IMG/VR virus record: IMGVR_UViG_3300042934_001368
Location: 1 to 31,770 of that record
Source: a virus
Direction: 5' to 3' (one strand)
Length of the DNA: 31,770 bases
Positions 4,463 to 25,269 of this stretch are shown piece after piece. A program made the position numbers and the translations under genes. The notes under the pieces are model-generated. The model saw nothing but the letters and a program-made list of their open reading frames with translations. It was not told the DNA's origin and searched no databases. The first letter of the stretch is position 1. Each line of letters begins with the position of its first letter.

Positions 4463-5434
4463 TTATTCCTCCTGGATATCCATAATATTTTTAAAAGCTA
4501 GATCCAGGCTCATGGTATAATTTCCATTTTCCCATGTGTGGCTGTCGCTCTCAATCCAAAAGATACCCGTTAAACCGGTTGCAGCATCTTTTATTCTGAC
4601 GCCGTAACCACTGATACAATAAATATTACCTAGCGCTTCAATACTGGCCGATTTATCTAATCCGATTAATATTTTCTTGGCTGCTTCTGTCGCGTTTACG
4701 CCTTCTTCTTTTGTGTAAACGTCCTGGAATATTCCATATGAATTAATCCAGTCTTGGTTTTTTACCTCTCCGATCTGTATACCGGAATCGTTATAAATCC
4801 TAACCCGGTTTACCATTGAAGAAAGACTTTCTTTGTAACTGGATTGCAGAATATTGATACCATCATCCAAAACAAAATCGTCAACAATTTGGCCCTTCTC
4901 GATAATATATAATCGATCGTTGTACATAAGCGGCATATAATTCTTTCCGTCAACATAATGAGCCTTTGTATAAGCTCGCATAATGATATTGTAATATGCC
5001 ACGCCATCGACCAAGAGGCTTTTTATATTGACTTTTGTTTCAGCGATCGATCCGGTTTTGATCTGCAATTCATTACAGATCTTGACTGTGATTTCTTCCG
5101 GCGTAATGTTTTTAAAATTATAGGTGCCGTTACTTCTTAATAGATGGTTTAAATCATCCATTCCGTTGTAAGTAACCGTTCCTGCCTCGCTGCTTCGCTC
5201 CCGATCATAAATCATGACGTTAATTAATAATCTATCGTCGTCACTATATAGTTTAATACGGTCGCCAAGCTTAATATTTAGATCCGGAATATTCTTATCG
5301 TTTGGAGAATTAAGCACTGATATATCGAGTGTCCTAGAAGCCTGGGCCGCTGATCCGGCCCAGGATACACTTGAAACATAATCCGTAATTGTATGAATGC
5401 TATTGTCTGTTCCTTTAATCCACTTAATTTTCAT
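4463..5434 (-). CDS. XkdQ-like baseplate hub protein (late control D type)
   Basis: A 323-residue protein beginning MKIKWIKGTDNSIHTITDYV. The string SVSWAGSAAQASRTLDISVLNSP and the segment LGDRIKLYSDDDRLLINVMIYDRERS fit the XkdQ/gpD family, whose members form the central hub connecting tail tube to baseplate. The later NRVRIYNDSGIQIGEV and GIFWIESDSHTWENGNYTMSLDLAF correspond to the C-terminal beta domain of the same family. It overlaps the preceding LysM gene by 4 bases (ATGA) and is followed closely by the DUF2577 gene. Confidence 0.88.
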   Translation of the reverse strand: MKIKWIKGTDNSIHTITDYVSSVSWAGSAAQASRTLDISVLNSPNDKNIPDLNIKLGDRIKLYSDDDRLLINVMIYDRERSSEAGTVTYNGMDDLNHLLRSNGTYNFKNITPEEITVKICNELQIKTGSIAETKVNIKSLLVDGVAYYNIIMRAYTKAHYVDGKNYMPLMYNDRLYIIEKGQIVDDFVLDDGINILQSSYKESLSSMVNRVRIYNDSGIQIGEVKNQDWINSYGIFQDVYTKEEGVNATEAAKKILIGLDKSASIEALGNIYCISGYGVRIKDAATGLTGIFWIESDSHTWENGNYTMSLDLAFKNIMDIQEE

Positions 5435-6060
5435 ACTTTTATCACCAACTTTTGTCCAATATGAATGATATTCGGATTTTTAATATTGTTTTGATTGGCT
5501 ATCGCATACATATTGTTTGCGCTTCCAGTGATCCTTTTTGAGATATCAAATAAGGTATCATTTTGCTTAACTGTATAATTTGTAGTTTTAATGGATTTCG
5601 AGTTTCTCGAAAGATTTGAAACCTCTATTTTCGTACTTTCCTTATTCATTTTTGGCGCCACTTCTCTAACACCTGGACGCCGGTATTCCTTTAGTTCCAG
5701 GGTGTAATAAACGTCGCCGGTGGCGTCCTGCTCTGAATGTGTAAAGCTCTCGATCGTGGCATCCATATTAATATTCGTTTCCGTAATAATTATATGGATC
5801 GGATCACTCAACCAGGATTCTATAAGTTCCACGCATTTATACGGTTTCGGAAATCCTTTGTATTGAACAACGCCGTATTCCTGGCTAGGAAAAAAAGAAG
5901 AAAGCGGAAGGGTTTTTAATCCTCGCTTTCCTATGATGTTAACTTCACCAAGCGAAACAACGTTAATACTATTGTTTTGTTGCGATACATTCACTTCAAA
6001 GCCGGAAGGCAAAACCGGCAATCTTAGTCTTTCAACGCCTTGTGATAACCATATTTGCAT
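5431..6060 (-). CDS. LysM-domain tail protein (XkdP-like)
   Basis: A 209-residue protein. The N-terminal ~125 residues (LPVLPSGFEVNVSQQNN...GEVNIIGKRGLKTLPLSSFFP) match the XkdP/gp53-like hub domain. The C-terminal ~48 residues (from about 162) form a LysM module with YTVKQNDTLFDISKRITG and GQKLVIKV. LysM binds peptidoglycan N-acetylglucosamine, so the protein should help the tail tip engage or cross the cell wall. It lies between the tape measure gene and the XkdQ-like gene, as in PBSX, and its start codon touches the tape-measure stop. Confidence 0.9.
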   Translation of the reverse strand: MQIWLSQGVERLRLPVLPSGFEVNVSQQNNSINVVSLGEVNIIGKRGLKTLPLSSFFPSQEYGVVQYKGFPKPYKCVELIESWLSDPIHIIITETNINMDATIESFTHSEQDATGDVYYTLELKEYRRPGVREVAPKMNKESTKIEVSNLSRNSKSIKTTNYTVKQNDTLFDISKRITGSANNMYAIANQNNIKNPNIIHIGQKLVIKV

Positions 6061-8126
6061 TATGCCGGTTGTACCTCCCCTGTGTTATTCATAATTTTTT
6101 CTAACTTATCAGCAAGTTTATTAACGATAGTATCAATATCCTTTTCGCTTCTAACTTCGATCCTATCAGCTAATTTTTCAATGACAACCTTAACGCTTTT
6201 CTTTCCCTCTGCTCTCGCCATTGAAATGCTCTTATCGTGCGGATATACTCTTGATCCTTTTGGAAGGTCGACGATCTCGGCGCCTTTATCATGGATCATT
6301 GCCGGGCCGCCTCCCCAATTTGGTGTGCCTTTTGCCAACATTGGAATTTGTGGAATATTAACTTTGAAATCTTTACCCCCAATGAGTGGCACCCAATCCG
6401 GAATTTTAAAGCCCATTTTATTAATTGCACCAACAACACCATTGATTAACCCGATTATTGCGTTGATAGGAGTTTTCGCTAGGGCTACAAGGCTTTCAAA
6501 TATACCGCCGAAGATCTTTTTTATTCCTTCGAAAGCCTTACTCCAATTGCCAGTAAATACGCCGCTTATAAAGGTTGTTATTCCATCAAATACCGTAAGT
6601 AGTCCAGATATAAACCCGGTTATTCCTTTTACAAATCCGGAAACAAAGCCAACGATCGCGGCAAACTGCACCTTAAACCCGGCAACAAATACCTTCGAAA
6701 GAAATGCAATGACCGGCTTTAGGAATTTAACAATGTTATTAATTGCCGGCCTTAGATTTTCAATCGCTCGGTTAATCACTTCTTTTGCTTTCTGAAATAG
6801 TTTCCCGAACATTCCTACGTCGGCACCAGATCGCTTGAATACATTTTTAATAGCAGTTCCAAAAGCAACAAAAAAGGCTTTTACCTTATTCCAGTTCTTA
6901 ATTATCAAGAAAGCTGCTATAGCGATTGCAGCAATTACCATAATAACGATACCGGCCGGACTTGTGATAAGTGCCATAACGCTTCCTGCTTTTTTAATAG
7001 CGCCGGCCACTTTTCCGAAGGTCGATACCGCCGATCCAACTCCCGTGACTAGCTTTCCGAAAATAAAAATAGCCGGCCCGATTGCTGCCGCCATTCCTGC
7101 AATTTTTAAAATCATTTCGAGTTGTTCATCACTTAAATTGCTAAACTTCTTTATCATGGAATTAGTCCATTGTAGCAATTTAGTTCCGACGGGTAGTAAT
7201 TTCGTTCCGATATTTGCGGCCGCTTCCTTTAATCCCTCTGTTAATATTCTTTGCTGATTGGCAGCGCCATCACTTGTTCTTGCAAAATCTCCCTGTGAGT
7301 TTTTTGCCTTCTCCATGACATAGTTATATCTTAACTGCACCTTTTCAGCCTGTGTTAAATCTTTATAACTTCCTTGTGCTGCTTTAGCCTGGTTTTCTAT
7401 CGCCTTGTTGTATGAAAGCTGTGCTTTTTCCGCTTGAATACTATTGCTACCGTATTTTTTTATTTTGGCATCAAGAACGCTTTGTGCAATGCTTACTTTT
7501 GCACTCATTTCGTTCATTTTTTCCTGGGATACCGTGCTTTTTAGTATACCTGTTTCAAGTGCATAGGCTTGTAGTGTGGTGTCATTCATTATAACGCCTA
7601 ATGACTTTAAACTCTCGCCCTCTCCTGTGTAAATGCCTTTTAAAGCGGTGTTTGCAATGTCAATCGATATATTTTTAAACGAAGCAAGATCACCGGCTAG
7701 CCCTACCATTTTTTGCGACATTTTAGAGGCTTGATCGGTAGATAACCCCATACCGGTAGCCATATCGCCGTAAGTTGCGGCCATATCAAGAGCAGTACCC
7801 TTTGCAATACCGTAGCTTTCAAGTGTAGTATCGGACCAACTTTTCACACTATCGGCATTATTACCAAATGCAACATCAACCTTATTCAAACTCTCCGACA
7901 TATCACTAGCCGCATTAAAACAAGCTACGCCGGCGGCAGCAATTGGCAAAGTAATCGCTGTTGATAAACCAGATCCAACAGCTGCAATATTTTTCCCGGC
8001 CTTTTGAATCTCTTTTCCCATTCGCTGCGCTTGTTTTGCGCTTCTTTCCATTGCCTTAACGGCATTACTCATAGGACTTGTAAATTTATCCACAAATCGA
8101 AGCGTAGCGTCAATGATATTTGACAT
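6060..8126 (-). CDS. Tail tape measure protein
   Basis: A 688-residue protein that sets tail length and passes through the tail tube. The N-terminus is coiled and rich in A, K and Q (NAVKAMERSAKQAQRMGKEIQKAG), followed by a PF10145-like minor tail region (VDVAFGNNADSVKSWSDTTLESYGI). Hydrophobic segments occur at about 330-360, 380-415 and 470-545. The C-terminus ends in the common AKGTPNWGGGPAMIHDKGAEIV-DLPKGSRVYP type region of clostridial tape measures. The length implies a moderately short tail, roughly 100 nm using the usual 1.5 A per residue. The gene starts inside the stop of the tail-chaperone frameshift extension (TAATG), the classic order chaperone G/GT then tape measure. Confidence 0.9.
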   Translation of the reverse strand: MSNIIDATLRFVDKFTSPMSNAVKAMERSAKQAQRMGKEIQKAGKNIAAVGSGLSTAITLPIAAAGVACFNAASDMSESLNKVDVAFGNNADSVKSWSDTTLESYGIAKGTALDMAATYGDMATGMGLSTDQASKMSQKMVGLAGDLASFKNISIDIANTALKGIYTGEGESLKSLGVIMNDTTLQAYALETGILKSTVSQEKMNEMSAKVSIAQSVLDAKIKKYGSNSIQAEKAQLSYNKAIENQAKAAQGSYKDLTQAEKVQLRYNYVMEKAKNSQGDFARTSDGAANQQRILTEGLKEAAANIGTKLLPVGTKLLQWTNSMIKKFSNLSDEQLEMILKIAGMAAAIGPAIFIFGKLVTGVGSAVSTFGKVAGAIKKAGSVMALITSPAGIVIMVIAAIAIAAFLIIKNWNKVKAFFVAFGTAIKNVFKRSGADVGMFGKLFQKAKEVINRAIENLRPAINNIVKFLKPVIAFLSKVFVAGFKVQFAAIVGFVSGFVKGITGFISGLLTVFDGITTFISGVFTGNWSKAFEGIKKIFGGIFESLVALAKTPINAIIGLINGVVGAINKMGFKIPDWVPLIGGKDFKVNIPQIPMLAKGTPNWGGGPAMIHDKGAEIVDLPKGSRVYPHDKSISMARAEGKKSVKVVIEKLADRIEVRSEKDIDTIVNKLADKLEKIMNNTGEVQPA

Positions 8127-8712
8127 TATTCACCGCCTCCTGTCCTGTCTTCCTTGCGCATATCTTCTAATTGTTGATACATAAAAGCCCGAACAATTTT
8201 CTTTTCTCCGCGGCCCATTTTTTTATATTTCATGGGTATCCAATCCTTGTACCGAAAAAGGAAGTACATTAGCTGTACTTCCCTATCGGTACTAATTAGT
8301 TTTTTATTTCTTCTTCCTCTTCCGCTTGCTCTTCGTCGTCAAAACCGCTTACCTTGGATATAAGATCTGCAATTTTAGCCATAGCACCGCCCGGGAACAA
8401 TATTTCCGCGAGATCCTTCGGTGTTGATGCACCGAAATGTTCTTGTAATGCCTGGTCTTTTAAATTTGGCTCAATAACACCCTCTAATACAAGTAAGGTA
8501 TTCTGCTTATAGATCTTTGAATAATCAGCGCGGCCCTTCTTATCCAATAGTTCCATTTGCAATTCTTGATATCTTTCCCCGTCAACCTCTTGAACTGTCA
8601 CAAAAAAAGGCTCTCCGGTCAGCTTGGAAAGCCTTTTAATTTCAATTTTTTCCGTTAGCTTCTCTTTAATTTGCTTTGCATCAACCGCAAGCAATCTTTC
8701 AACTAAATTCAT
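8126..8712 (-). CDS. Tail assembly chaperone, -1 frameshift product (G-T fusion type)
   Basis: Long form of the tail chaperone, made by a -1 slip at A AAA AAC (8305-8299). Reading continues in the new frame without a stop from 8299 to the TAA at 8128-8126, adding 57 residues to the 138-residue short form, about 195 in total. The added part reads LISTDREVQLMYFLFRYKD, then WIP, then KYKKMGRGEKKIVRAFMYQQ and a short acidic/glycine end. The TAA overlaps the tape-measure ATG as TAATG. In lambda and most long-tailed phages the short form coats the tape measure and the long form recruits tube subunits (Xu, Hendrix and Duda). The frameshift itself is inferred from sequence, not measured. Confidence 0.85.
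8249..8305 (-). promoter_or_regulatory. -1 ribosomal frameshift signal: slippery heptamer plus nested stem-loop
   Basis: On the minus strand, A AAA AAC occupies 8305-8299, in the correct phase (ATA AAA AAC TAA). After a 6-base spacer (TAATTA), GTACCGA (8292-8286) pairs with TCGGTAC (8255-8249). Nested inside, GGAAGTAC (8282-8275) pairs with GTACTTCC (8267-8260) around a 7-base loop. Together these are 15 perfect pairs directly behind a canonical slippery site at ideal spacing, and the extension ORF is open. Such signals pause the ribosome and promote slippage. Confidence 0.85.
8296..8712 (-). CDS. Tail assembly chaperone, short form (XkdN-like, G protein)
   Basis: The unshifted 138-residue product starting MNLVERLLAVDAKQIKEKL, with GGAGGG before the ATG. 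The segment FVTVQEVDGERYQELQMELLDKKG and the EGVIEPNLKDQALQEHFG stretch fit the XkdN/phage TAC family (tail assembly chaperones related to lambda gpG). The C-terminus is very acidic (DDEEQAEEEEEIKN). The slippery codons are its last two sense codons before TAA. It lies between the tail tube and tape measure genes, as expected. It should bind the tape measure during tail assembly and not be part of the finished virion. Confidence 0.88.
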   Translation of the reverse strand: MNLVERLLAVDAKQIKEKLTEKIEIKRLSKLTGEPFFVTVQEVDGERYQELQMELLDKKGRADYSKIYKQNTLLVLEGVIEPNLKDQALQEHFGASTPKDLAEILFPGGAMAKIADLISKVSGFDDEEQAEEEEEIKN

Positions 8713-8739: not shown

Positions 8740-9171
8740 TTAAACTACGTCTAATAACTCCCATTTTCTAAAAGTAAATGGTATGCTTTGCTCGCCATTT
8801 TTCTTTAACTCCCAATCGGCAAGCGTCATTTCAGTGAATACGCAACCGATCAACTTCACTCTCTCGCAACCTAATGCGCTTGGATCGTCAAGCTTTGAAA
8901 TTATAGTAACTTCGGTTTGCTTTCCTTTTTTCAAGTTTTCACTTTGTAACTTAATAAAACGCGAAGTAATTTTATTGATCTTAACCGTACCTTTACATTC
9001 AAGGCCTGTGATCTTTGTTCCGTCCACAAGCTCCCTTGATTGACTGATGGTTTCTGTTTTGGGTGTTACTTTTGCTTCCAGGCCGGTTACTTCACTGACA
9101 TAATCACTGTCAATCCATAGTTCGCCCCAACTACCATTCATTACATATTCGGGCTTATAACCTTTTTCCAT
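8740..9171 (-). CDS. Tail tube protein (XkdM-like, DUF2001)
   Basis: A 143-residue tube protein starting MEKGYKPEYVMNGSWGELW. The pattern NGSWGELWIDSDYVSEVTGLEAKV, the SRELVDGTKITGLECKG segment and GCVFTEMTLADWELKKNGE-QSIPFTF are typical of XkdM/DUF2001, the inner tube subunit of PBSX-type contractile tails. It follows the sheath gene, as in most contractile phages, and precedes the tail chaperone gene. Confidence 0.92.
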   Translation of the reverse strand: MEKGYKPEYVMNGSWGELWIDSDYVSEVTGLEAKVTPKTETISQSRELVDGTKITGLECKGTVKINKITSRFIKLQSENLKKGKQTEVTIISKLDDPSALGCERVKLIGCVFTEMTLADWELKKNGEQSIPFTFRKWELLDVV

Positions 9172-9188: not shown

Positions 9189-10250
9189 TTAAATGTTAAT
9201 AGGCAATACAACCTCTTCGATAGCATCCAGGATAGTAATAGATGCCTTTAAAAATACTTTGTCGTCGGTGTCGTACACCCGGATCGCTTGATCTGTCATG
9301 TCGTCCGTATCTACACCAGACGCCTTTATATATGCCCTTTGTGTCGTTACATCAATATCAACGGATGCAGAAGAAAGAATACCATCAAGGATAAGTTGTT
9401 CGAAATATCCACTAATCGCCGAAATAAGTAAACACTTATTATCATAGCTATTTGAAAACTTACCTATATAACTATCTTCCGTCGTTTTCGTGATATCGTC
9501 ATAGATCATATCCATTGCTTCAACGATTTTAATTTTCTTGAATTGATTTCCTTTGTCTGCTGTTGTAGTCAAGAAACTATTAATCGCCCTTGCTACTTTT
9601 ACCTTTTCACCATCATAGAAGATAAAAAATTCGCCATCGTCGACAGCTTCATCCATAGCAGACCTTGACATTCTAGTGCAATCCGTAACCTCCGGAAGCG
9701 GTGCATATGTACAGCTGATTGTTAAAGGCGTACCGGCAATGAGGCCGGCAATTCTGGAACAATACCCTTCCGCTGTAAAATCCCCGTATGTCGATTTAAT
9801 GTTTTCGGTTGTATGATTGATAATTCCTGGATCGTCAATCGCACAATCTGGCAATACTGCTTTGCACTTTTTCCCGTTCTGCCTCATGCTCTTGATCCAG
9901 GACGCAACATCCGTCGTCATGTCGTCCGCATCAACCGTAGGAATTGCCAAATAATCAAATCTTTCCGTCTCTAGGTATTCCAGAGCGTCGGTATAATCTT
10001 CGGCATTTGCCGGCAAGACATAGCAGATCACTTTTTTGGGGGCATTTTGATATCCGATCAAAGCAAGTTTGATCTGTATTTGATTGGCTGTCGTCAACGC
10101 ACCAGGTATATCCGTAATATCTAGTACGGTAAACGGATTTTCCGAAGGTACTGCATCCTTAAGGATCAGCGCTACTATGCCGCGTTGCCCTCTGGTAATA
10201 ACTTGCGCTGCTTTTTCTGTAAAACTAACATTTACGCTAGGCATTCCCAT
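9189..10250 (-). CDS. Phage tail sheath protein (XkdK-like)
   Basis: A 353-residue contractile sheath subunit. It starts MGMPSVNVSFTEKAAQVITRGQRGIVALIL, the N-terminal handshake segment of PBSX-type sheaths, with AGAGG upstream. The middle contains ALEYLETERFDYLAIPTVD and SWIKSMRQNGKKCKAVLP, a Rossmann-like sheath domain. The C-terminal half includes FFIFYDGEKVKVARAINSFLT and DDITKTTEDSYIGKFSNSYDNK, conserved in the tail_sheath families. Its presence, with tube and baseplate J, establishes that the phage has a contractile tail. It lies between the tail terminator-like and tube genes. Confidence 0.95.
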   Translation of the reverse strand: MGMPSVNVSFTEKAAQVITRGQRGIVALILKDAVPSENPFTVLDITDIPGALTTANQIQIKLALIGYQNAPKKVICYVLPANAEDYTDALEYLETERFDYLAIPTVDADDMTTDVASWIKSMRQNGKKCKAVLPDCAIDDPGIINHTTENIKSTYGDFTAEGYCSRIAGLIAGTPLTISCTYAPLPEVTDCTRMSRSAMDEAVDDGEFFIFYDGEKVKVARAINSFLTTTADKGNQFKKIKIVEAMDMIYDDITKTTEDSYIGKFSNSYDNKCLLISAISGYFEQLILDGILSSASVDIDVTTQRAYIKASGVDTDDMTDQAIRVYDTDDKVFLKASITILDAIEEVVLPINI

Positions 10251-22493: not shown

Positions 22494-22953
22494 GTTTTTT
22501 CCTTTCTTGTCTATATTCGTTCATTATTCCACCATTGCAAGGAATGTTACAGTCACATATCCCACCGCACTGTAAATCTTCTTCCGGTACCGGTACGCCA
22601 ATCTCTTCTTCACTTATGAAATATCTGCATCCATAACAGATACTATCTTCATCTAATCGAAATCTTGGGTGCTTTTCCTGTTCATATCCAATATTTATCC
22701 CTATTTCAAATGTTTCGCATTTACCGTTTCGGCTTATTGAGATCGTGTCTTTTTCAAGTATGTGCATACAATTATCTTCAAAATAATGCCTACATTCAGA
22801 GTTTAAGCAAAATATACCTCTTATTATATTTTTTCTTTCCTTTTTGACTTCTGCAAAACTAGCAACGCTATGTTCACAACGACCGAATGTATTGCAATCT
22901 TTTTCATAACAACGCATCCCATCATTGTTCTTTTTGTTTTTTAGACAATTCAT
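22471..22953 (-). CDS. Cysteine-rich protein (possible zinc-binding)
   Basis: A 160-residue protein with about 14 cysteines, in clusters: C15, C20, C26 in CYEKDCNTFGRC, then C49, C54, C62 in CLNSECRHYFEDNC, followed by CYGC and a CGGICDCNIPC stretch. The first two clusters look like two copies of one C-x4-C-x(5-7)-C unit. Its ATG overlaps the ParB stop as ATGA, so it is coupled to parB. Role unknown; metal binding is likely. Confidence 0.65.
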   Translation of the reverse strand: MNCLKNKKNNDGMRCYEKDCNTFGRCEHSVASFAEVKKERKNIIRGIFCLNSECRHYFEDNCMHILEKDTISISRNGKCETFEIGINIGYEQEKHPRFRLDEDSICYGCRYFISEEEIGVPVPEEDLQCGGICDCNIPCNGGIMNEYRQERKKHGRGKQQ

Positions 22954-24461
22954 TTCGTGTTACCTTCTACCCTTTCCCTACATTTCATCATGATATCTTG
23001 CAAAACGTAGATTTCATTTTCTGTTAGGTGGATACAAATGCTTTCAAGGTCTTTAACTGTTCTCTTGGCCCAATATTTCAAATCACTTTCTATGGTCGTG
23101 ATCTCAATTACTTTGGTATAGATCATAACGTCAATCAGATCCGCTAATTCCTCGTAGAAGATATGGGCTTTCTGTCCTGCTGCTATTCTAGTTACTTCCA
23201 TTGCTGCGTCGAATAAAACCGCCTCACATTTTTCTGTCTCGCTAGTCTGTGTTATAAAGGTCGTTTTGGTACCCATGTATTCTGCAATATACAAAGACTT
23301 GTTGCCGGCGTCTTTCCAACCTTCCCAAAACTCTGTACGGAAGAAATCAGAATTTATTACTGCTGCCATGAAGTAATTAACCTTCATACCTTTATACTCT
23401 TTGTTAGGGTTAATTCTTCCGTTGATTATTAAGCTCTTTGTATCTGTCCGATCCGGTAAAGGCTGATTGTATGTAATAACGGTTTCTTGTGGCCGCTCAA
23501 CTGCTGCCTCCTGGTTATTACTTACCGGCTCCGGATCTGGTTCTGGCTCTTCTGGTGGATTGATAGCATTAAATTCGTTTTGGGCTTCTCTTGGTTCTTC
23601 CTCGATATCCTTGATCTGGTTTAATAAAATGGCTGCCGCCTCTTCTAGGCTTACATTGTTTTCTTCTGCGCACTTTATGACCTTATCTTTTAAATCTTCC
23701 GGAAGAGCTTCCATATACTCTAAAATATTCTTTTGACCTGGTAGTTGCTCTTCCGTTTCTTCTTTCTTTTCCTTGGCTTCCTTCGCTTTTAAAGATCCGG
23801 TTTCCTGGTATGTCTCGTATAAAGCCTTTTGAGCTTCTACAGTTAGGCCAGATATTTCATTCGCCGCGGAAGTGCTTATCTTTCCGGCTGCAAATTCGTC
23901 CTTAAATTCTTCGATCAAGTTGTGATCGATATTTTCTAAGGTTCCAATCTTGGTTTTATTAGTCCCTAATATAGCTGCTATAATGTCTTGCTTCTTGCCA
24001 GGTAGTTCGTTGTCCTTTTGATACTCAACAAGTAGCTCCTTTATTCTCTTAATTTCCTGCATCTTTTCAAAATCCGAACGATCTCTTTGTGTTGAGTTAG
24101 TAAAGATCAAGATTAATTCATTTCGAATGTTATCGCCGGATTCTTCAATTTTGCAATCCATCATTTCATATTCTGCCTTGCCTTCACCTATTAACTTAAG
24201 TACAGCAAGCCTTCTTTTATGTCCTGCTATTATTTCAAACTCATCTGTATCCGGGATCGGCTTTAAGACAGAATTTTGTTGAATACCAACTAATTCAATC
24301 GTTCTTGCTAGGACTTCGATTTCTTCATCGTCGATATGGTAAAAATTTTCTTTATCCGGCGCCGGTCGCATCTTGTGAACACTTACTTTAACTAATTTAA
24401 AATTGTTCTTAATGGATTGTTTGCTTTCTGCATTTAGAAAATTGTTTATGTTAAATGCCAT
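22950..24461 (-). CDS. parB: ParB/Spo0J-family partition protein
   Basis: A 503-residue ParB-like protein. The N-terminal ParB/Srx CTPase domain has the GHKRR box (IIAGHKRRLAVL, residues about 78-87), preceded by IDDEEIEVLARTIELVGIQQN and EFEIIAGH. A helix-turn-helix follows (KKQDIIAAILGTNKTKIGTL, then ISTSAANEISGL). After a Pro/Glu-rich linker (about 290-330), an extra ~150-residue domain (NPNKEYKGMKVNYFMAAVI...) makes it far longer than usual ParB (about 280-330 residues). It overlaps parA by 11 bases. Together they should bind a parS-like site and segregate DNA, or act in regulation. Confidence 0.88.
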   Translation of the reverse strand: MAFNINNFLNAESKQSIKNNFKLVKVSVHKMRPAPDKENFYHIDDEEIEVLARTIELVGIQQNSVLKPIPDTDEFEIIAGHKRRLAVLKLIGEGKAEYEMMDCKIEESGDNIRNELILIFTNSTQRDRSDFEKMQEIKRIKELLVEYQKDNELPGKKQDIIAAILGTNKTKIGTLENIDHNLIEEFKDEFAAGKISTSAANEISGLTVEAQKALYETYQETGSLKAKEAKEKKEETEEQLPGQKNILEYMEALPEDLKDKVIKCAEENNVSLEEAAAILLNQIKDIEEEPREAQNEFNAINPPEEPEPDPEPVSNNQEAAVERPQETVITYNQPLPDRTDTKSLIINGRINPNKEYKGMKVNYFMAAVINSDFFRTEFWEGWKDAGNKSLYIAEYMGTKTTFITQTSETEKCEAVLFDAAMEVTRIAAGQKAHIFYEELADLIDVMIYTKVIEITTIESDLKYWAKRTVKDLESICIHLTENEIYVLQDIMMKCRERVEGNTK

Positions 24462-25269
24462 TGTTACCGCCTTTCTCGGTACCCAAATTGGGTACGTTTC
24501 CTTCGACCATTGTCAAATACTCTGAAACGAATTTTCTGTAATCCTGTGAAGAACTGCTACGGCTCGAATACTCTGCAAGTGGCATTCTTGCAAATGAGCT
24601 TTCTCTCCACTTGTCTGTTCTTCTGATGCACTGATTAAATACCGGTACTTTGTGAACGTTCTTTAATATTTCAATTCCTTGAGCGTTAATATCATCTTTC
24701 TGATATTGAGTAATAAGGCATCCCTTAAAATTAAGCTTACCGTTGAAGTCCTCTTTTGTGTTCTCTATTTGCTCTTTGAGTATGTCAAAGCCATCAAAAG
24801 AGTATTCATCTATCATGAAAGGTATTATTACATCATCCGACATTACAAGCGCGTTTATGATACTTATATTAATATCTGGTGCATTATCTATAATGCAATA
24901 GTCGTAATCATTCTGTACCCTCTCAAAAGCTTTTCTAAATCTCGTTTGCTGCTGCCGGCCAAAATCCATCATTGTTTTTATATTAGCGGTTAATAATTCC
25001 ATGTTGGCCGAAACCATATGTAAGTTGGGATACGCTGTTTCTTTAATGATTTCTCGTACGTCAATATTTTCTTCCGTCATGACTCTTGCTATTGTGTTCT
25101 TATCTTCCTGGCTATATCGATTGAAACTTTTCGAGCCATTACCCTGTTTATCATTTTCGATATATAAAACTCTCTTTCCAAAAATTACTGCCAATATCCA
25201 TGAAAAATTAACCGAAGTTGTTGTCTTCCAGGTGCCACCCTTTAAACTGATAATTGATATTGTTCGCAT
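24451..25269 (-). CDS. parA: ParA-family ATPase with an unusual Walker A
   Basis: A 272-residue ParA/MinD-type ATPase. The P-loop reads LKGGTWKTTT: the deviant signature Lys10 and P-loop Lys15 are kept, but Gly at 14 is replaced by Trp. Further marks are NDKQGNGS (like DxDxQGN), IIDNAPDINISIIN (Walker B-like) and CLITQYQKDD. ParA proteins bind DNA non-specifically and move ParB-bound DNA. The start codon is the ATG of MRTISIISLK with AAGGAG upstream; the first 62 bases overlap the preceding gene out of frame. Confidence 0.85.
   Translation of the reverse strand: MRTISIISLKGGTWKTTTSVNFSWILAVIFGKRVLYIENDKQGNGSKSFNRYSQEDKNTIARVMTEENIDVREIIKETAYPNLHMVSANMELLTANIKTMMDFGRQQQTRFRKAFERVQNDYDYCIIDNAPDINISIINALVMSDDVIIPFMIDEYSFDGFDILKEQIENTKEDFNGKLNFKGCLITQYQKDDINAQGIEILKNVHKVPVFNQCIRRTDKWRESSFARMPLAEYSSRSSSSQDYRKFVSEYLTMVEGNVPNLGTEKGGNNGI
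24479..24495. repeat. 17-bp palindrome in the 3' end of parA (candidate ParB site)
   Basis: GTACCCAA-A-TTGGGTAC, perfect 8-base arms, 18 bases before the parB start codon. parB-proximal palindromes are typical for parS or for autoregulation. One such palindrome by chance in a 32-kb window is not improbable (about 0.5 expected), so its position is the main support. Confidence 0.4.

Follow-up and report, generated by a model that had tools for sequence, protein, structure and literature searches.

A predicted programmed -1 ribosomal frameshift at the end of an XkdN-type tail assembly chaperone gene

Where does the tail assembly chaperone of this phage end? In the window, by which we mean the whole 31,770-nt stretch of viral DNA that was analysed, the chaperone gene (8296-8712, minus strand) closes with a stop codon after 138 amino acids, and a second open frame, offset by -1, runs on from the end of this gene to the start of the tape measure gene. 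The question is whether some ribosomes pass from the first frame into the second, so that one gene gives two proteins. We conclude, with a probability of about 0.95, that the gene uses a programmed -1 ribosomal frameshift of the lambda G/GT kind and would yield a short and a long product; this conclusion is drawn from sequence comparison and structure prediction. The case rests on a combination of elements and on their conservation rather than on the slippery heptamer alone. By itself AAAAAAC is weak evidence, because the window holds 17 copies on its two strands, and comparison with related loci was therefore required.

Gene identity and anatomy of the predicted slip site

The short, zero-frame form is a member of the XkdN/YqbN family by score and by structure. 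It matches PF08890 (Phage_TAC_5, XkdN-like; E 8.6e-20, 71.5 bits against a cut-off of 27, positions 2-135 of 135) and phrog_389 (2.6e-23). Its AlphaFold2 model (mean pLDDT 90) resembles the crystal structure of Bacillus subtilis YqbN, 3klu (E 2.6e-5, probability 1.00), an entry that was also matched by sequence profile (E 1.6e-6). The match of the model to the HK97 tail assembly chaperone, 2ob9, was weak, with a probability of 0.91 but an E of 0.2.

The neighbouring genes, all on the minus strand, form a tail module. Upstream of the chaperone lie a tail tube protein (8740-9171; XkdM-like, PF09393, E 1.1e-40) and a tail sheath (9189-10250; PF04984, E 9.8e-18; phrog_1480, 7.9e-128), and downstream lies the tape measure protein that governs tail length (6060-8126; 688 aa, phrog_991, E 8.8e-64). 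The sheath gene shows that the tail is contractile, and the gene content identifies the module as PBSX-type. The order sheath, tube, chaperone, extension and tape measure recurs in phiCD27, phiOH2, MismyG and other phages. The tape measure gene is followed by a LysM gene, XkdP-like by the PBSX gene order, and then by a YqbQ-like gene. Near its start, the YqbQ-like gene contains a very stable local fold of its own at about 5321-5390 (minus strand; -22.3 kcal/mol per 50 nt from 5370).

The 3' end of the chaperone gene reads ATA AAA AAC TAA. A base-by-base check places the heptamer A AAA AAC (8299-8305, minus strand, as are all features of the site) in X XXY YYZ phase, with the zero-frame stop TAA (8296-8298) directly 3' of it. 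A spacer of 6 nt, TAATTA (8293-8298), which includes the stop, separates the heptamer from a nested hairpin. The outer stem pairs GTACCGA (8286-8292) with TCGGTAC (8249-8255), giving 7 bp that are all Watson-Crick (8292-8286 with 8255-8249); many relatives pair one base closer on the 3' side, a register that we call B. The inner stem pairs AGGGAAGTACA (8274-8284) with TGTACTTCCTT (8258-8268) in 11 bp that include one G-U (8284-8274 with 8268-8258), and it closes on the loop GCTAA (8269-8273). Between the two stems, one base is unpaired on the 5' side and two on the 3' side. These are the elements of canonical -1 sites, namely an X XXY YYZ heptamer, a 6-nt spacer and a stable downstream stem.

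The -1 frame (8126-8299) is open for 57 codons (8299-8129) and ends in TAA (8128-8126), which overlaps the ATG of the tape measure gene (8126-8124) as TAATG. The predicted long form thus has 138 + 57 = 195 residues. A preliminary description of this locus had reported the heptamer in the right frame, the 6-base spacer, nested stems of 7 and 8 perfect base pairs, a 57-codon extension ending at the tape measure start as TAATG, and a long form of roughly 195 residues. All of these coordinates and lengths hold on re-examination, the 8 bp being the perfect core of the 11-bp inner stem.

Conservation of the heptamer and the extension

Relatives were drawn from viral contigs, phage records and bacterial genomes (the genomes through locus L003), and identical sequences were removed, giving a first set of 162 loci and then a set of 218 distinct loci, the window included. 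An in-phase heptamer with six A is present in 218 of the 218 distinct loci tabulated (209 AAAAAAC, 7 AAAAAAG, 1 AAAAAAA and 1 AAAAAAT), so that the check proposed earlier, a comparison of homologues for a conserved slippery site, comes out in favour of a frameshift. Of the 162 loci in the first set, 161 have a distance of 7 or 10 nt between the heptamer start and the chaperone stop; 161 have a -1 extension of 46-73 codons, and the median extension is 59 codons. For some loci the open extension is partly a matter of selection, since they were chosen through the extension itself; genome searches with PF08890 are free of that bias and gave the same result.

Four loci lack a heptamer near the stop. 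One is cut by the contig end (L115), and another has A AAA AAG further upstream together with a longer zero-frame tail (L291). In the remaining two, L220 and L221, the chaperone stop is followed by a different open frame of about 159 codons, apparently a second chaperone-like gene, which makes these loci unsuitable for comparison. Stop codons in the extensions of related phages had been named beforehand as evidence that would tell against a frameshift; the one exception to an open extension is L200, a decayed prophage, where the chaperone is also broken by an internal stop and is not followed by an intact tape measure start.

The same arrangement, an in-phase AAAAAAC followed by an extension of 56-67 codons, occurs in ten of the eleven named phages checked: PBP180 (a defective phage of B. 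pumilus), phiC2, phiCD27, CD1801, Jimmer1, Abouo, phiOH2, Lj771, phiAQ113 and MismyG. The exception is EJ-1, whose ORF55 (1138-1734 of locus L228; NC_005294, 30163-30759) is a single frame of 198 aa, in which an extra A just upstream of the intact heptamer fuses chaperone and extension. That a described phage has its frames fused by one base counts against the proposal. However, two contigs with 98-99% protein identity to EJ-1 (L238 and L239) do not have this base, and the extra A is on that account a private mutation or a sequencing error.

The extension also changes in the manner of a protein-coding sequence. Across 177 pairs of extensions differing by 3-30%, which are not independent of one another, substitutions numbered 2799 at third positions against 1269 at first and 946 at second positions, a pattern that indicates coding. 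The window's extension matches phrog_2722, a family of unknown function (E 9.9e-13), and its model is alpha-helical (mean pLDDT 85). Taken alone, the extension had no significant structural match in the PDB, and Pfam and NCBIfam scans of 12 diverse extensions returned nothing useful and no known lambda T-like domain; the lack of a match to such a domain counts against the lambda comparison.

A coding frame could also be a separate small gene, not fused to the chaperone and started either at an ATG within the hairpin (8269-8267) or at the following one, some 12 codons further along. Record annotators and the PHROG families treat the downstream frame in this way: PV036455 annotates a separate hypothetical protein, and the phrog_2722 alignment begins only at the internal Met. 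The residues that precede this Met (KKLI.TD.EV) are nevertheless in frame and conserved. In some relatives (L002, L126, L127 and others), GGGGAGGT stands in the 5' arm of the inner stem about 8 nt before an in-frame ATG, where it resembles a ribosome-binding site. Such signals are not general, however: a 5-nt Shine-Dalgarno match to any start in the first 30 codons occurs in only 40 of 160 relatives, 9 of the 160 have no start codon at all in that stretch, and neither ATG of the window has a match of this length. A separate gene would, moreover, leave the near-invariant heptamer unexplained. We consider it very unlikely that the downstream frame is expressed in this way instead of by frameshifting, and note that a minor extra product could arise from an internal ATG; in the relatives just named, the RBS-like sequence lies buried in the hairpin.

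Most of the records examined show the short gene alone or accompanied by a small separate hypothetical gene, and the XkdN/YqbN family models and the records examined contain only the short form or two genes, with no annotation of a frameshift that joins them. One of the record searches used a hand-made blend of the relatives' extensions, which served solely to find annotated records.

Strength and covariation of the downstream hairpin

An 86-nt segment containing the hairpin folds at -30.0 kcal/mol (z -6.95), a value equalled by none of 200 shuffles. The 50 nt that follow the heptamer (-25.7) are more stable than all 6,344 windows of a scan of both strands of the 31.8 kb, made with 50-nt windows at 10-base steps. 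When the same peptide is recoded with synonymous codons, none of 200 recodings folds as well as the hairpin (z -4.0), and an Rfam search matched it to no known RNA family. Among the relatives it ranks 23rd of 217 by fold energy, and nested hairpins of its shape are usual in close relatives of the window. The hairpin is thus strong but not exceptional, and the comparison does not support the earlier remark on its unusual strength and compactness for a PBSX-type phage.

Compensatory stem changes, which had likewise been proposed as a check, are found in the close relatives. In 24 of them, 89.6% of cells pair in the register used by most, a figure inflated by the choice of these relatives for good inner pairing; the counts of covariation and a swap test on 88 sequences are fairer evidence for the stem. 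In the majority register the 24 relatives have 30 doubly changed cells against 8.1 after shuffling, a number reached in none of 500 shuffles, and sliding the arms removes the signal. When the outer 3' arm is placed one base further out, as in the window itself, the count is 23 such cells against 11.0. Variants of the outer stem include ACC..CGG, ACG..CGT and GCG..CGC, and the accompanying codon changes are synonymous or conservative. In the swap test, exchanging arms among the 88 relatives gave poorer pairing than the native arms in every one of 1,000 trials (inner stem 7.95 native against 7.57, outer stem 4.75 against 4.20). These data indicate that the hairpin is kept as a structure in the window's close relatives. 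The site agrees in this with a canonical -1 signal, in which a stable RNA structure 5-9 nt after the heptamer is maintained by compensatory change.

The downstream structure is not universal. Fold z relative to synonymous recoding is below -2 in 65% of 160 relatives, about one third of the relatives give no fold signal clearly above such recoding, and more distant groups have different stems.

The hairpin and the A run allow two further explanations. An RNA polymerase slipping on the six A could add one A to some mRNAs, which would cause the same frame change and the same long form. Six A is a short run for transcriptional slippage, and this process does not need the X XXY YYZ codon phase that is kept throughout the relatives; a conserved downstream hairpin with coding-compatible covariation is, in addition, typical of ribosomal frameshifting. 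We give transcriptional slippage almost no weight. The other explanation casts the hairpin as an intrinsic terminator, or as an attenuator, lying between the chaperone and tape measure genes, as a short T run after the inner stem and a T-rich 3' side might suggest. However, the T run consists of conserved Leu-Phe codons and leads into the 3' arm of the outer stem, a scan of the coding strand here finds no terminator, and termination at this point would cut off the tape measure gene. A terminator or attenuator is extremely improbable.

Proposed mechanism, known systems and the wider family

From the anatomy, conservation, coding extension and covarying hairpin observed here, we infer slippage of the following kind. 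Most ribosomes would read A AAA AAC, meet the adjoining TAA and release the 138-aa chaperone. The smaller share that the nested hairpin, 6 nt downstream, causes to pause would slip one base back, exchanging AAA AAC for AAA AAA and reading CTA next, and would continue for 57 codons to give the 195-aa long form. The slip rate would set the ratio of short to long form. If the parallel with lambda holds, the short form may coat the tape measure protein, and the long form, through its helical tail, may recruit the tail tube subunit.

The -1 frameshift of lambda G/GT and its counterparts in long-tailed phages were reportedly described by Levin in 1993 and by Xu, Hendrix and Duda in 2004. In lambda, both gpG and gpGT interact with the tape measure, and the T part is responsible for binding the tail tube subunit (PMC5009743); lambda-type frameshifting in long-tailed phages and canonical -1 sites with hairpin stimulators are reviewed in the same source. 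Like lambda G/GT, the present chaperone lies between the tail tube (or major tail protein) and the tape measure, with a -1 slip near its end, an open extension that reaches the tape measure start, and two expected products. The preliminary assignment to this kind of frameshift agrees with the gene position, the phased heptamer and the open extension conserved at the protein level. Unlike lambda, whose slip site is a G-rich heptamer, this phage would slip at A_AAA_AAC and has a contractile, PBSX-type tail; its zero-frame stop adjoins the slip site, a strong covarying hairpin follows 6 nt downstream, and no sequence relation was found for its extension. The choice of heptamer counts against the proposal to some degree, since in E. 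coli A_AAA_AAG slips more readily than A_AAA_AAC (PMC5009743), whereas this phage family nearly always has A_AAA_AAC.

Whether heptamer and hairpin compensate for one another can be asked within the family. The median fold z is +0.27 for loci with A AAA AAG or A AAA AAA and -2.79 for those with A AAA AAC (Mann-Whitney p 0.0008, a value inflated by related loci that represent perhaps four independent origins), and six of the seven testable loci of the former kind (L163, L171, L173, L180, L188 and L215) have no or a weak hairpin signal. Against this trend, an AAG locus, L222, has a strong fold; the A AAA AAT locus, L257, also folds strongly. We put forward a trade-off between slip-site strength and stimulator strength in XkdN-type chaperones as a tentative idea that is more doubtful than probable. 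If it were true, a more slippery heptamer would make the hairpin unnecessary for the same product ratio.

Frameshifts of this kind have long been known, and we make no claim of a first report for XkdN-type chaperones. A literature search for an XkdN or PBSX frameshift, which covered mostly open papers so that absence carries little weight, found no statement of one; neither the near-invariance of the heptamer across the XkdN family nor a reassignment of PHROG families was found stated in the literature searched. Six PHROG families of unknown function (2722, 10943, 20560, 28231, 5646 and 33439) have matches among the frameshifted tails of XkdN-type chaperones, and by these matches they represent frameshifted ends of the XkdN chaperone, which gene callers miss or split. 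The findings support a predicted two-product chaperone in a very common class of contractile-tail phages of Firmicutes. One nearly fixed heptamer combined with a varying stimulator offers a natural test set for how slip rates are set in bacteria, and both the PHROG reassignment and the heptamer/hairpin trade-off are worth following up.

Elsewhere in the window, ParB-like and ParA-like partition genes (22950-25269, minus strand; phrog_4715 and phrog_164) raise the possibility that this phage persists as a plasmid prophage.
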